Source: Paracoccaceae bacterium
GTDB lineage: Bacteria; Pseudomonadota; Alphaproteobacteria; Rhodobacterales; Rhodobacteraceae
Direction: 5' to 3'
Assembly: GCA_030148005.1 (NCBI GenBank)
Contig: JASBUI010000025.1
Span: 1-64,000 of the forward strand
DNA length: 64,000 bases
Numbering within the stretch: position 1 is the stretch's first letter; every line of letters starts with the position of its first letter. The notes under the pieces were generated by a model. That model saw only the letters and a program-made list of their open reading frames with translations. It was not told the origin of the DNA and did no database searches. Made by a program: the position numbers and the translations under genes. Shown here one piece after another: positions 1,750-9,435 of the stretch.

Positions 1750-2019
1750 TTACTGGTCGCCGCTGTGAACGAAGCTCTGACGCAGGATCTGGCGGCTGGT
1801 CGGATGGACCACGATCAGGACTTCGCTGCCGTCCGAGTCATAGGCGGCCAGCGTGTTCGTTTCCTGATCCACCATCTGGACGTCGCGGAATCCCGCCATG
1901 ATGAGCTTTGCGGCCATGCCATCGAAATACTGGTTCGGCATTTCTCCGGAAGTGTTGGCGGACGCACTTGCCGCGCGCAGCAGTGCAACCCCGGTCAAAG
2001 CAGATGCAAAATATTTCAT
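1750..2019 (-). CDS. small exported protein, PepSY-like
   Basis: An 89-residue protein with a signal peptide (basic N-terminus, hydrophobic segment, Ala-rich cleavage region near residue 21). The mature part is small. The strand pattern around SDGSEVLIVVHPTSRQIL resembles a single PepSY-like module, a guess from pattern only. The frame stays open upstream, but ATG 2019 is supported by AAAGGA at a good distance and by the signal peptide starting there. It lies alone between YaeQ and the Crp/Fnr regulator on the same strand. Function unknown. Confidence 0.6.
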   Translation of the reverse strand: MKYFASALTGVALLRAASASANTSGEMPNQYFDGMAAKLIMAGFRDVQMVDQETNTLAAYDSDGSEVLIVVHPTSRQILRQSFVHSGDQ

Positions 2020-2186
2020 GATCAGTGTCCTTTGGAATAAATGGCGTTTGGCAGACCCGTTGCCGAGCCTGCCCTCATCTAGCCATAAACACTGTCGGTG
2101 CGATGTGAACGGGGTCACAGGTTTGCGGGAAAACATCGCTTTTGGCCCCGCGTCGTGGGCAAAAGCGATGGCGCAGGCGAGCTGCC

Positions 2187-2732
2187 CTAGCCCAACGCCT
2201 TCCAGTCGACCGGGGTCACGTAGACCATGCCCTCGTCGACACTGACCATCACGTCGCCATCCTGGATGTTGACCTGCATCTTCATCGCGCGGCTGGCGAG
2301 GTTGGCCAGCGCGGTGGTGTCCGTTTCGGACAATCCCGTCACCTGAAGGTTGTCGAACCGCGTGGTGCTGCCTTTGACCTTGTCCCACCAGATCTCGGCT
2401 GGCCGCCCGCCATAGGCGTAGACCACGACCTTGCCCGCCTTGGCGCAGGACTGGCGCAGGACCTTTTCGGAGGGCAGACCAAGAGCAATCCAGACGTCCA
2501 GTTCGCCGCTCAGGCTTTTTTGCCAGATGTCCGGCTCATCATCGGTGGACAGACCCTTGGTCATCTCCAGATGCTCGTGCGCGTTGAGCGCAAAGGCCAC
2601 GAGGCGCACCATCATGCGTTCGTCGGTCTCGGACGGGTGTTTGGCCACGGTCAGCTTGTGGGTCTCGTAATAGTGGCGATCCATGTCCGACACGGTGAGT
2701 TCGACTTTGTAGATGGTGGCATTCTGCGCCAT
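2187..2732 (-). CDS. yaeQ: YaeQ family protein
   Basis: 181 residues, the usual length of the YaeQ family. It has the characteristic N-terminal MAQNATIYKVELTVSDMDR and a central region with HPSETDERMMVRLVAFAL. YaeQ has a restriction-endonuclease-like (PD-(D/E)XK) fold in solved structures, but its cellular role is not settled. The gene follows the hybrid kinase on the same strand with about 97 bp between them, so cotranscription is possible but not shown. Confidence 0.9.
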   Translation of the reverse strand: MAQNATIYKVELTVSDMDRHYYETHKLTVAKHPSETDERMMVRLVAFALNAHEHLEMTKGLSTDDEPDIWQKSLSGELDVWIALGLPSEKVLRQSCAKAGKVVVYAYGGRPAEIWWDKVKGSTTRFDNLQVTGLSETDTTALANLASRAMKMQVNIQDGDVMVSVDEGMVYVTPVDWKALG

Positions 2733-2829
2733 GACGTGTCCCAGTCCGTTACAGATTGGGATGCCTACTGCGTCTGAGACGTGGGTAAAAGCAGATAAAC
2801 GGTCTTGGCAAGGCAGAGCAGGTACGGCC

Positions 2830-4654
2830 CTATCCCATCAGAACGTCTTTGAGGCGGTCCAGCCTGAGGGGCTTGGGCATAAAGGCGTTCATGCCGGCCG
2901 CTTTGCACTTGTCGATGTCATCCTGCTGCACGCTGGCGGTGAGCGCGATTATTCGGGTCTCGGCATTGGGGCCATCTTCGTTGCGAATGCGTCTGGTCGC
3001 CTCGAGCCCGTCCATTTCCGGCATGTGCATGTCCATGAAGATGACATCGAACTTTTTCTGTTGCGCCTTAACGAGTGCGGACAGGCCGTTGTCTGCGGTG
3101 TCCACATCGAACCCGAGGCTTTGAAGCATGGCCGATGCCACGGTGAGATTGATCTCACTGTCATCCACCACGAGGGCAGAGCGTTGACGCCCTGTCGGCT
3201 GGGTGTCGGTCTGCGGTGGTCTGGCTTCGACAGAGGCTGCGGTCGCGATGTCCAGCTCAAGCTCTACCGTGAAGGTGCTGCCTACGCCCTGCGCGGTTTG
3301 CACGGAGACGGTGCCGCCCATGGCGTCGAGCAGGCTTTTGACGATCGACAATCCCAGACCGCTGCCCCCAAAGCGGCGCGCGATGCCTTGGTCTTCCTGT
3401 TCGAACCGGTAGAAAATCCGATCAAGCGCCTTTTCCGAAATCCCTATGCCTGTGTCGGTGACTTCAAACCGCAGCTTTGCGCGGTTCGCACCCCGTGTCT
3501 CGACCGAGGTCTTCACGGTGACGCTTCCCTCTTGTGTGAACTTTACCGCGTTGCCGAGAATGTTGATGAGAACCTGTCGAAGGCGATCCGGGTCTCCAAT
3601 GCAGGTCAGATCGGTTGGCCCCATGTGCTCGACTGTCAGCGTCAACCCTTTCCTCTCGGCACTGGGGCGCGCGATGGCACAGGCTTCATCACAGAGCTTT
3701 GACGGGGAGAACACTTCCCGCCGGAGGGTCAGCTTTCCGGTCTCGAGCATCGAGACATCGAGAATGTCGTCAACGATCGAGGACAGCGCCTTGCCGGACT
3801 GGACAATGGTCTCCACCTTTTGGCGCTGCGCCGGATCGAGGTCAGACGCGGTCAGAAGTTCCGCGACCGGGATGATCCCGTTAAGCGGCGTGCGGATTTC
3901 GTGGCTCATCGTTGCAATGAAGCGGGACCGTGCCTCAAGCGCATTCTCAGCCCGCATGCGCGCCTCTTGCAGGCTTTTGGTCTGGTATTGGATTTGCGCG
4001 CGCATCGCACTAAAGCTGCGTGCCATCATGCCAACTTCATCACGACCATCGGGCAAAGAGACGTCAAAATTCCCGACTGCCATTTCATCGGCGGCGCGCG
4101 AAATCTGGATCAGGCGGCGCGTGAACAAGCGGTCGACGACATAGGCGACGCCGAACAGGATCAAAGCAACGATCACCGCCGCCACGTAGACCATGCGCAA
4201 TTGTTCGGTCCTAAAACGCTCGATTCCGGGGCCGAGATCGACGACGACGGACAGCTCACCAAGGTCTTGCCCCTGGAACGCGATCTGAACGGTTTCGGTG
4301 ATGATCGCGGCCCCGCTTGCAACCTGCACATCGCCCAAAGGGAAAATGCGACGTCCATCCACGCCGTGCAGTGTGACCTCGATCCAGTTGTCGTAACGGT
4401 CTTTGGCGCTTTGGAGCGTCTCGTATGCAGCGCCAATCTGATTACTGAGGAGAAAGGGTAGAATTCCATCCGCGAGGATCTCTGCTTCCCGTTCCACTTC
4501 CAGGGATTGTGTGTCGATGAGCAGAGCATTATTGTGTGTCGATGAGCAGAGCATTCATGCGTGGCGTCCACGCAAACTCGATCAAAACGGTTCCAACAAG
4601 AGCCCCGATGATGATGACGGCAATGACCTGAAATCTGATCGATTTGACATTCAT
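2830..4654 (-). pseudogene. hybrid sensor histidine kinase, interrupted by a 25-bp duplication
   Basis: Encodes a membrane hybrid kinase. From ATG 4654 the frame gives one transmembrane helix (about residues 8-26) and then hits TAA at 4531-4529 after 41 codons. The stop is created by a 25-bp tandem duplication (4506-4555). Deleting one copy restores a 599-residue protein: TM1, a periplasmic domain of about 120 residues, TM2 (about 146-165), HAMP, HisKA with the phospho-His in MSHEIRTPLNG (about H243), HATPase (DTGIGIS, GGSGLGLS) and a receiver domain with Asp in FMDMHMPEMDG. The downstream part is open from 4554, where an out-of-context ATG gives a 574-residue form lacking TM1. The gene follows the PhnD-like gene by 31 bp, so it is the third gene of an Hpt / binding protein / kinase operon. 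Confidence 0.85.
4506..4555. repeat. 25-bp perfect tandem duplication inside the kinase gene
   Basis: Two head-to-tail identical copies, 4506-4530 and 4531-4555, each beginning ATTGTGTGTC and ending AGAGCATT. The unit length is not a multiple of three, so the second copy shifts the reading frame of the hybrid kinase and brings in a TAA. The flanking sequence reads through perfectly if one copy is removed. Confidence 0.95.
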
Positions 4655-4685
4655 GGTCACTGACCGCCTTCGCTAAAAGCCCGAA

Positions 4686-5546
4686 TTACTTGTCGACCCA
4701 GTAGTTTCTGAGCTGCAATTCGTTCAGGATTTCGTATTCTTCTGCAGATGCGGGCACGACTTTCCGGATCGGAATCTTCGCTAGAAGAGCTTTGCCGTCT
4801 TCCGTCTCGCCCATGGCAAGAAAGGCCGCTCTGACGTTTTCCACGATGGAAGGATCGACACGTTTGTGCGCGACGACCGGATGCGGTGGCACACGCGTCG
4901 TTTCGTAGATGATCCGAAGCCTGTCTCGAACGTTTGGATCAATGCTGTTGAAGGTCGCCATGACCCCGCCGGCCGCATCCATCTCTCCTAGCGCCACGTT
5001 CAGATACGCAGAGGAATGGGTGGTTACGTAGGTCGCGTCGTAGCTTATTCCGAAAATTCGATCGAGATCAGCCCGCATCAGCAATGCCGCGCCCAACGCG
5101 TTTGGCGCCGGGAAGGCAATCGTGTGCCCTTCAAGGTCGGCAACCGTCTGAAAATCGGAATCCTTGGCCACCACCAGCACGCCAAAAAGCTCACGACCGC
5201 CATCCCGGACCACGGGATAATAGCCTTGGGATTCCGCCGCCACGAGGAAATGGTAGGGATTCATATACGCAAAATCGAACGCGCCTTCGATAAAGTCCTG
5301 TTCGAATTCGGGAATCTCGGGTGATCCCCTTATCACGAATTGGTGGCCGGTTCGGTTTTCCAATTCGGCAAGAATAGGCGCCCAGATTTCCGCGAGCTTT
5401 CGCGGTTCGAACTGGGGCACGATGCCGACACTGAACGTTTCGGCCCAGGCAGCCCCACAGACCACGGCAGACGCCAGTGTCGCAGAACAAAACACCTTGA
5501 ATTCCCCACGCCGCTGGCACCACAGGTCATGAAGCAATGTCATCAT
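4686..5546 (-). CDS. PhnD-like periplasmic phosphate/phosphonate-type binding protein
   Basis: 286 residues. A signal sequence ends near AAWAETFSVGI, followed by a PhnD-type periplasmic binding fold: GIVPQFEPRKLAEIWAPIL near the mature N-terminus, FDFAYMNPYHFLVA, and ADLEGHTIAFPAPNALGA. PhnD-like proteins bind phosphonates or related oxyanions for ABC uptake. Here there is no permease or ATPase; the gene sits between an Hpt gene (17 bp upstream) and a hybrid kinase (31 bp downstream). The likely job is therefore ligand sensing for the kinase rather than import. Start ATG 5546 has GGGGG upstream. Confidence 0.8.
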   Translation of the reverse strand: MMTLLHDLWCQRRGEFKVFCSATLASAVVCGAAWAETFSVGIVPQFEPRKLAEIWAPILAELENRTGHQFVIRGSPEIPEFEQDFIEGAFDFAYMNPYHFLVAAESQGYYPVVRDGGRELFGVLVVAKDSDFQTVADLEGHTIAFPAPNALGAALLMRADLDRIFGISYDATYVTTHSSAYLNVALGEMDAAGGVMATFNSIDPNVRDRLRIIYETTRVPPHPVVAHKRVDPSIVENVRAAFLAMGETEDGKALLAKIPIRKVVPASAEEYEILNELQLRNYWVDK

Positions 5547-5563
5547 GGATACCCCCTGATCCG

Positions 5564-5908
5564 TCAAAGCGCGGCGTTCAGCCGGTTTTTCGTTTCGTTC
5601 CATGTCGAGCGCAATCCTTCGATTAGCTCGTTTGCTTGCGTTTTCTGTCCATTTCGCAAGGCGTTCTCGGCGGCAATGAGTTCCTGTCGGAACCGAACCA
5701 CCCCAAGAGCCGCAGCCGACCCCGCGATCTTGTGCAGGATCTCCGCCATTACCATTTCGGAAGACGTGCCCTGTTCCACAGTGTCCAGCCCGGTTTCCGT
5801 GTCCTGGATGAACTTTGACATCAGACCTTGTAGCACTTCAGCATCGAGGACCGCTCGCAATTCGGCGAGACTGGAAGGGTCTATGTATCCTGGTGCAGCC
5901 ATAGCCAT
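5564..5908 (-). CDS. Hpt (histidine phosphotransfer) domain protein
   Basis: 114 residues, a single Hpt four-helix-bundle domain. The motif HKIAGSAAALG supplies the phosphorylatable histidine (H59). It would take phosphate from the receiver domain of the hybrid kinase at the other end of this operon and pass it to a response regulator that is not in the window. It is the first gene of the Hpt / PhnD-like / kinase operon, with 17 bp to the next start. Confidence 0.85.
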   Translation of the reverse strand: MAMAAPGYIDPSSLAELRAVLDAEVLQGLMSKFIQDTETGLDTVEQGTSSEMVMAEILHKIAGSAAALGVVRFRQELIAAENALRNGQKTQANELIEGLRSTWNETKNRLNAAL

Positions 5909-6249
5909 AAGTGCCTTCGCATAAACCTTTTTCGTGAGCGATGGTCACAGAAAGAAACGACACGCATTCCGAACAATAACACTGGCTTGAAAAGCCGGTA
6001 CTCAGGACCACCCCCGTCTCACAAAAGGAAACAAATCAGACTGATATGTCAAGAATCTAGCTGGTTTCGCTAGGTATTGGCCCAGGTGCCGTGAGGGGTT
6101 ACGAACGGATCACGATCACGCCGCAACCATAAGGCATCACGGCACAACCTTCGGCAGCAAGAGCTTGCTGGCGTGATGTTCCACCCGACCGTTGCTACCC
6201 GGGCGCGTCAGGCACCCGGGTTTGGCTGAGCCCCGCATCTAGCGCGGGT
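5909..6249. other. intergenic region upstream of the Hpt operon
   Basis: 341 bp without a convincing gene. It must hold the promoter of the minus-strand Hpt operon, and it holds a hairpin at 6197-6221 just after the serine hydrolase stop. The part around 6010-6080 is AT-richer. I see no clear -35/-10 pair or operator dyad. Confidence 0.6.
6197..6221 (-). terminator. hairpin after the serine hydrolase gene
   Basis: ACCCGGG and CCCGGGT form a 7-bp GC stem with an 11-base loop, 29 bp after the minus-strand stop. There is no T run on the minus side, so if it terminates it is weak or Rho-assisted. Confidence 0.4.
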
Positions 6250-7587
6250 TTATCGGCTCATCAGGTATTCTGCGACGGCCTGATAGGCGGGCAACGAGGT
6301 CGGGTCGATGAACCCGTTTTGCGCCTGCGGGAAAGAGGCGAGGCGCACCAGCACCATCTCGGCGGTTGGATCGACATAGATCGTCTGGCCATGCACCCCG
6401 CGCGCGGCGTAGGCGCCGTGGTCGTTGTGGAAGACCCACCACTGGCTGGTATAGCTGCCGTTGGGGATGGTCTTGAAACCTGCGAACTTGGAGGGGTCGC
6501 CTCCAGCGGCGATGGTTTCGACCACCTCGGCCGGGAAGAGCCGTTCGCCGTTGATCTCACCGCCGTTGAGCATCAGTTGCCCCAGACGGCCCAGATCGCG
6601 CAGCCCGGCTGTCACGCCGCCGCCCGCAAAGGGCACGCCCTTGCCGTCGACGGTCTGGTAGGCGTCCATCTCGGCCCCCATGCGCCGCCAGAGGCGTTCG
6701 GACGCGAGATCGGTCACCGCTTTGCCGGTGACGCGGCTGATCATCCAGCCCAGCATGTCCGAGTTGATGGTCTTGTAGTGGAACGCATCGCCGTGGTTGC
6801 CCTCGGGTTTGACCTGCTGGAGGTATTCCCAATAGCCATCCGGGCCTTCATAGCCTTCGGGCTTGGGCAGCGGGCTGGCCGCGCGGGAATAGATCCAGAT
6901 GTCGGCGTTAGGGTCGGAATAGTTCTCCGAATACTGCACGCCGGTGGTCATATCCATGACCTGCCACACAGTTGCGGAGGCAAAGGCGCTGTCGCCGATC
7001 TCAGGGATCACGTCACGCACCAGAAGCGTGTCATCAAGCACGCCTTCGGCCACGAGGATTTCGCCCAAAAGACCGGTGATCGACTTGGTCATCGACATGA
7101 TCGCGTGTTTGCCGTCTTCCTCAAGACAGCCGAAATAGCGTTCATAGACCACTTCGCCCTTGTGCAGGATCAGCATCCCGTCGGTGTAATTGGCGTAAAG
7201 CGACTGTTCCCATGTCATCGGCGTGTCGCCGTCGATCGGCATGAAGGTCAACGCGTCGATCTCGCGGGCCAGATCGGCGAATTCGGCGGGCGACGGATAG
7301 GTCAGAGGAACGGGCGCGCCGGTGCCTCGGCTGATTTCCTCGGTCGGCAGGAATTCCCGCAGGTGGCAGACTGACCAGCGCAGCTTTGGGAAGCTGAAGA
7401 AGTTGGAATCCGGTTGCGTGATCAATTTGTCAGGGGGCGGTGGGAACCCCTGCATCCAGCCCATGACATTCGGGGCGGACTCCTGCGCCGACAACGGGGC
7501 AGATTGGGCGAGCGCGCCAGTCGCGGTTCCGAGCGTGATGGCAATCCCTGCCGCCAGCGCAGCGAGATTAGAAATTGACGACGACAT
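6250..7587 (-). CDS. beta-lactamase-fold serine hydrolase, exported
   Basis: 445 residues. A signal peptide (cleavage near GALAQS, about residue 28) is followed by a class C beta-lactamase/esterase fold. The nucleophile motif SMTK is at S165-K168 and the second motif YKTINS lies about 120 residues later. Family members act as esterases or peptidases at the cell surface; true antibiotic resistance is unlikely. The length fits the family. Start ATG 7587 has AGGAGG upstream. It overlaps the end of the upstream porin gene by 20 bp, so translational coupling is likely. Confidence 0.85.
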   Translation of the reverse strand: MSSSISNLAALAAGIAITLGTATGALAQSAPLSAQESAPNVMGWMQGFPPPPDKLITQPDSNFFSFPKLRWSVCHLREFLPTEEISRGTGAPVPLTYPSPAEFADLAREIDALTFMPIDGDTPMTWEQSLYANYTDGMLILHKGEVVYERYFGCLEEDGKHAIMSMTKSITGLLGEILVAEGVLDDTLLVRDVIPEIGDSAFASATVWQVMDMTTGVQYSENYSDPNADIWIYSRAASPLPKPEGYEGPDGYWEYLQQVKPEGNHGDAFHYKTINSDMLGWMISRVTGKAVTDLASERLWRRMGAEMDAYQTVDGKGVPFAGGGVTAGLRDLGRLGQLMLNGGEINGERLFPAEVVETIAAGGDPSKFAGFKTIPNGSYTSQWWVFHNDHGAYAARGVHGQTIYVDPTAEMVLVRLASFPQAQNGFIDPTSLPAYQAVAEYLMSR

Positions 7588-9263: not shown

Positions 9264-9338
9264 GCGGGCGTAGCTCAGGGGTAGAGCATAACCTTGCCAA
9301 GGTTAGGGTCGGGCGTTCGAATCGCCTCGCCCGCTCCA
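9264..9338 (+). tRNA. tRNA-Gly (GCC)
   Basis: 75 nt including an encoded CCA. The acceptor arm GCGGGCG pairs with CGCCCGC, the D arm is GCTC/GAGC, the anticodon stem TAACC/GGTTA holds the loop TTGCCAA (anticodon GCC), and the T loop is TTCGAAT. It is the first of two identical copies 97 bp apart. Confidence 0.97.
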
Positions 9339-9360
9339 ATCCGGTCTGATCGATGGCAGC

Positions 9361-9435
9361 GCGGGCGTAGCTCAGGGGTAGAGCATAACCTTGCCAAGGT
9401 TAGGGTCGGGCGTTCGAATCGCCTCGCCCGCTCCA
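9361..9435 (+). tRNA. tRNA-Gly (GCC), second copy
   Basis: Identical over all 75 nt to the copy at 9264-9338, including the six bases GGCAGC before it. It therefore arose by tandem duplication with a 97-bp period and about 22 bp of unrelated spacer. No integrase or attachment-site remnant is visible beside it. Confidence 0.97.

Follow-up and report, generated by a model that had tools for sequence, protein, structure and literature searches.

The window—the 64-kb stretch of DNA analysed here, C11:1-64000 of draft genome G000—carries a hybrid sensor kinase gene that is truncated by a 25-bp tandem duplication. On balance, we favour an account in which a recent duplication in the first helix of a kinase paired with a periplasmic binding protein shifted the reading frame, placed a TAA at codon 42, and thereby produced a loss-of-function allele. 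If real, this would be a clean case of a sensor kinase gene broken recently and in principle reversibly, and one that can be set against a clear intact relative.

Positions 4506-4530 and 4531-4555 hold two identical copies of a 25-bp unit in head-to-tail order, as an earlier, sequence-only reading of this DNA had reported and as our repeat scan confirms. No other exact tandem repeat with a period of 12-300 and two full copies occurs in the window; by comparison, 20 first-order Markov sequences of the same length yielded 4 exact tandem repeats of period at least 10, the longest with a period of 11. The gene is read on the minus strand, where the copy at 4531-4555 comes first in transcript order and holds codons 34-41 of the leader frame together with ATG 4554; the copy at 4506-4530 comes second. 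Translation from ATG 4654 runs for 41 codons and ends at a TAA (4531-4529, codon 42) created by the junction between the two copies, leaving a truncated leader ORF at 4529-4654 that covers the first membrane segment (TM1) and the beginning of the sensor helix. If only one copy is read, the result is an unbroken kinase of 599 residues with two membrane helices. Both the early stop and this longer product had been proposed from the sequence; frame reading bears them out, together with a hydropathy scan in the case of the helices. The unit length is 25, or 3x8+1, hence the shifted frame. Copy number was also varied on paper: 0 copies give 143 residues, 1 copy reads through, and 2, 3, 4, and 5 copies all stop after 41 codons, because the unit-unit junction itself makes the TAA.

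The 25-bp unit has no other copy in the genome draft with up to 3 mismatches allowed, and we therefore rejected the idea that it is a dispersed element. Microhomology-mediated duplication was rejected as a specific mechanism, since the array is exactly 2.0 copies long with no terminal microhomology (0 further matching bases at either flank). A DNA hairpin at the duplication site is no better than in shuffled sequences—of 200 shuffles, 119 and 196 gave an equal or better fold.

Downstream of the stop, the rest of the kinase gene remains open on the minus strand as a 574-aa frame (2830-4554) comprising a sensor region, TM2, and, by Pfam, HAMP, HisKA, HATPase_c, and receiver domains. In the one-copy protein the hydropathy scan places hydrophobic segments at residues 1-31 and 141-171, with a sensor region of approximately 110 residues between them. 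The helix and strand layout was taken from an AlphaFold2 model of the intact homologue at locus L004 (mean pLDDT 74, pTM 0.39), which has a long first helix at 6-61, a helix/strand region at 65-131, and a second long helix at 133-184; on this model, the stop at codon 42 falls within the first long helix. A fold search with the same model returned kinases or kinase-containing proteins, judged by title, among the 50 matches listed, and these matches did not identify the sensor region.

Comparison with relatives, which had been proposed beforehand as a check, bears out one copy as the intact state. The homologue set comprises 12 loci, 7 from one locus search and 5 from a search of 394 genomes. 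In the former, 79 loci were matched, of which the 7 with an alignment starting at or before kinase residue 11 were used and 72 were left out, aligning only from residue 69 or later; in the latter, 8 other genomes had a match, 3 of which appear to repeat loci already in the set (L008, L009, and L010), and the remaining 5 were added. Nearest in sequence are loci with titles such as Rhodobacteraceae bacterium, Marivita, Thalassobacter, and Tropicibacter, the three named genera belonging to the Rhodobacteraceae. The one-copy kinase reading can be aligned with the homologues over its full length, at identities from 81% (L004) down to 41% (L147). In all 12 loci the kinase frame is unbroken and a binding-protein gene lies directly upstream (the L007 contig carries only the 3' part of that gene; for L145 and L147 the BLAST alignment begins only at residue 22 or 28, yet the frames are open upstream of there), and an exact repeat at the duplication site is absent from every one of them. 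L004 is the most informative: it has the same gene order (Hpt, binding protein, kinase, yaeQ), its kinase protein is about 80-81% identical, and its DNA aligns with one copy only, the alignment having a single 25-base gap exactly at one repeat copy. Because of this gap, and because the 12 frames are open with no repeat at the site, we conclude that one copy is the ancestral state and that the duplication is derived, having arisen either in the lineage of the window or during its assembly.

The same-genus genome G001 (86% complete) lacks a close homologue; the best match in it shares 39% identity over the kinase part. A DNA search of 60 other genomes with positions 3900-4700 as query matched only a 28-base query stretch in G022, and megablast against plasmids found no similar DNA.

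Apart from the duplication, the kinase gene has no other lesion. Between the window and L004, dN and dS are 0.118 and 1.29 for the kinase (0.109 and 0.564 over its first 41 codons), 0.131 and 0.974 for the binding protein, 0.045 and 0.573 for YaeQ, and 0.192 and 2.27 for Hpt. With three outgroups in turn, kinase residue changes on the window and L004 branches number 26 versus 36, 24 versus 28, and 23 versus 19 (chi-square at most 1.6, not significant), and those of the binding protein 12 versus 16, 9 versus 17, and 15 versus 11; with 26 to 62 informative sites each, these relative-rate tests have little power and cannot date the event. There is no sign of relaxed selection, a weak test whose outcome would be the same for a recent break and for an unreal one. 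The perfect identity of the copies had been taken as the mark of a recent event, and so it looks to us: identical copies and, for what that test is worth, the lack of relaxed selection suggest that the duplication is probably recent.

The break lies in a group of signalling genes. Directly upstream of the kinase, on the same strand, is an intact gene for a PhnD/ArrX-like periplasmic binding protein (4686-5546, start set by the L004 alignment; PF12974, E=1.9e-56 for the ORF from 5603), whose best solved relatives are ArrX (E=3e-10), PtxB (6e-8), PhnD (3e-6), and AioX-type entries (about 3.5e-4). Upstream of this, also on the minus strand, lies a gene for a single-domain Hpt phosphotransfer protein (5564-5908; Pfam Hpt, E=1e-7), with a BLAST homologue at 1 of the 12 loci (L004). 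At another of these loci, L148, a frame just upstream of the binding protein (3500-3780; G381:C42) is Hpt-like by eye, and BLAST with the window Hpt missed it. Gene order and spacing suggest that Hpt, binding protein, and kinase form one operon. The yaeQ-like gene on the other side of the kinase (2187-2732, minus strand; PF07152) lies outside the signalling unit; in L004, a homologue with 93% identity likewise follows the kinase on its downstream side. A sigma-70-like promoter scan of 2000-6300 found no site, the sigma-70 model not being informative for this bacterial group.

The AioXS and ArrXS systems feature a PF12974-type gene that immediately precedes one for a membrane histidine kinase, and the same arrangement is present here; as PMC5908839 describes them, AioX-AioS and ArrX likewise have a gene for a PhnD-fold periplasmic binding protein beside one for a membrane histidine kinase. 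The window differs in that a receiver is built into the kinase and that the pair is preceded by a gene for a separate Hpt. The same paper gives a specific pocket cysteine, Cys106, in AioX and its orthologues, together with the Tyr88-Cys106 spacing. The cysteine of the ArrX motif FICTYSF, which we took as Cys106 from that spacing, aligns with Asn in the window protein; thus, the window binding protein misses the defining feature of the AioX subfamily. No AioR-type response regulator or arsenic enzyme was found among the six window proteins scanned with Pfam. TtrS is similar in using a PhnD-like domain as the sensor for a histidine kinase—in PMC5408782 the two are fused in the same chain, whereas here the sensor is a separate protein. 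We found no open-access paper on a PhnD-like binding protein with a hybrid kinase that used the term hybrid histidine kinase. This pairing, side by side in 12 loci, may merit more attention than the duplication itself.

From these likenesses we infer a ligand class and a relay for the intact pathway. The PhnD/ArrX-like protein would bind an oxyanion-like ligand in the periplasm, dock on the periplasmic domain of the kinase between TM1 and TM2, and control both autophosphorylation and a relay that passes via the receiver to the stand-alone Hpt. The two-copy allele would still encode the binding protein and Hpt, with the membrane kinase absent or present only as a TM1-less form made from a weak internal start; it is predicted to be a loss-of-function allele. 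Elsewhere in the draft, on C37, there is an intact paralogous pair (L120, 8171-11332), in which a PhnD-like binding protein comes first and a hybrid kinase of 765 aa second; they are 54% and 39% identical, respectively, to their window counterparts. Since this pair is present, loss of the window kinase may be tolerated, and the C37 proteins may buffer it. In all, five PF12974 matches in the draft pass the cut-off: one on C11, two on C37, one on C2, and one further along the window's contig (C11:119663-120097).

The main competing explanation is that only one copy exists in the true gene and that an assembly or sequencing fault, such as an untrimmed overlap at a contig join, entered the 25 bp twice in the draft. 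We regard this as the less likely course, though well worth keeping in mind. The source draft comprises 2,536,343 bases in 42 contigs and is 76% complete, and the duplication is known from one consensus. An array of exactly 25 bp duplicated with zero flanking homology also has the look of an untrimmed contig overlap, and an artefact would sit well with a kinase gene that is otherwise intact and constrained and with an unbroken frame at the 12 homologous loci. On the other hand, there is no sign of a systematic fault: a scan of 420 kb (21 of 22 stretches, about one fifth of the genome; 20 of them lie on contigs other than C11, and one lies on C11 beyond the window, with a 4-kb overlap) found one other exact tandem repeat of period 12-300, and this is of a different size, with a 29-bp period, 2.24 copies, 65 bp in length, and 7 bp of extra homology (L118, 13274-13338; G000:C37). 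The adjacent Hpt, PhnD-like, and YaeQ frames are likewise unbroken beside the broken kinase. We infer that the duplication is real in the cells and that no functional kinase is made. The case also shows that a single draft can give a false picture of the signalling repertoire of a species.

The sequence-only reading had further suggested that the two copies form a reversible ON/OFF switch. Tandem copies can collapse, and reversion of the two-copy allele by slippage would be possible in principle; there are also precedents in which a duplication or short insertion breaks a gene reversibly. In Pseudomonas tolaasii, a 661-bp duplication in pheN/rtpA (gacS) is reported to be reversible and to come with a colony phenotype (Han et al. 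1997, as described in PMC10928948). Common to both cases are a tandem duplication that frameshifts a sensor kinase gene and a one-copy allele that is intact; here the unit is 25 bp, not 661 bp, the kinase is a different one, and a single consensus sequence stands in place of reversibility with a colony phenotype. In Escherichia coli K-12, according to PMC6469041, an 8-bp insertion in phnE, revertible by slippage, renders phosphonate uptake cryptic. This too is a short, frame-breaking insertion in one lineage with most relatives intact, but it is 8 bp in a permease gene with reversion demonstrated, whereas the present case is 25 bp in a kinase gene known from one sequence. As an evolved device for phase variation of the kinase by copy-number change, the switch finds no support at this locus and seems to us very improbable: none of the 12 homologous loci has a repeat at the site, there are two copies and no tract, no microhomology at the ends would favour recurrent formation, and among 0 to 5 copies one copy alone reads through, with 2 to 5 giving the same stop. 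We give just as little credence to a population version, in which one- and two-copy alleles are both kept in the species and an oxyanion-sensing pathway is toggled by 25-bp slippage with the C37 pair as backup.

Least likely of all is a new working split system, in which the 41-residue TM1 peptide and a TM1-less kinase started at ATG 4554 would signal constitutively or independently of ligand. The suggested restart holds in part. Its frame is open and in frame with all of the remaining kinase, its product would retain only the second membrane segment in the hydropathy scan, and it begins 23 nt before the leader stop is reached, which makes re-use of terminating ribosomes conceivable; however, no convincing Shine-Dalgarno sequence precedes 4554 by eye. 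The counterpart of this ATG in L004 is out of the kinase frame in the DNA alignment, and thus no past use of it to start the kinase is indicated. The putative restart product would begin inside the first helix of the sensor and leave the sensor part without an export signal, and there is no sign of changed selection.

The preferred reading, a recent duplication that disables the kinase, would add at most another instance of an already known phenomenon, a sensor kinase gene broken by duplication. For a short frameshifting tandem duplication in bacteria, we found nothing directly alike among the open-access papers listed.

Three other repeats were seen along the way. The 29-bp repeat of L118 closes off a small gene at its 3' end; the adjacent gene is phage-capsid-like, a label given from reading the translation. 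At L148 (6519-6546; G381:C42), a 7-bp unit occurs four times approximately 80 bases beyond the point where the kinase alignment ends, which places it close to the 3' end of the kinase gene or shortly past it; this tract could be slippage-prone. In the window itself, two tandem tRNA-Gly (gcc) genes at 9264-9435 form a repeat with a 97-bp period, 1.8 copies, and 100% matches.
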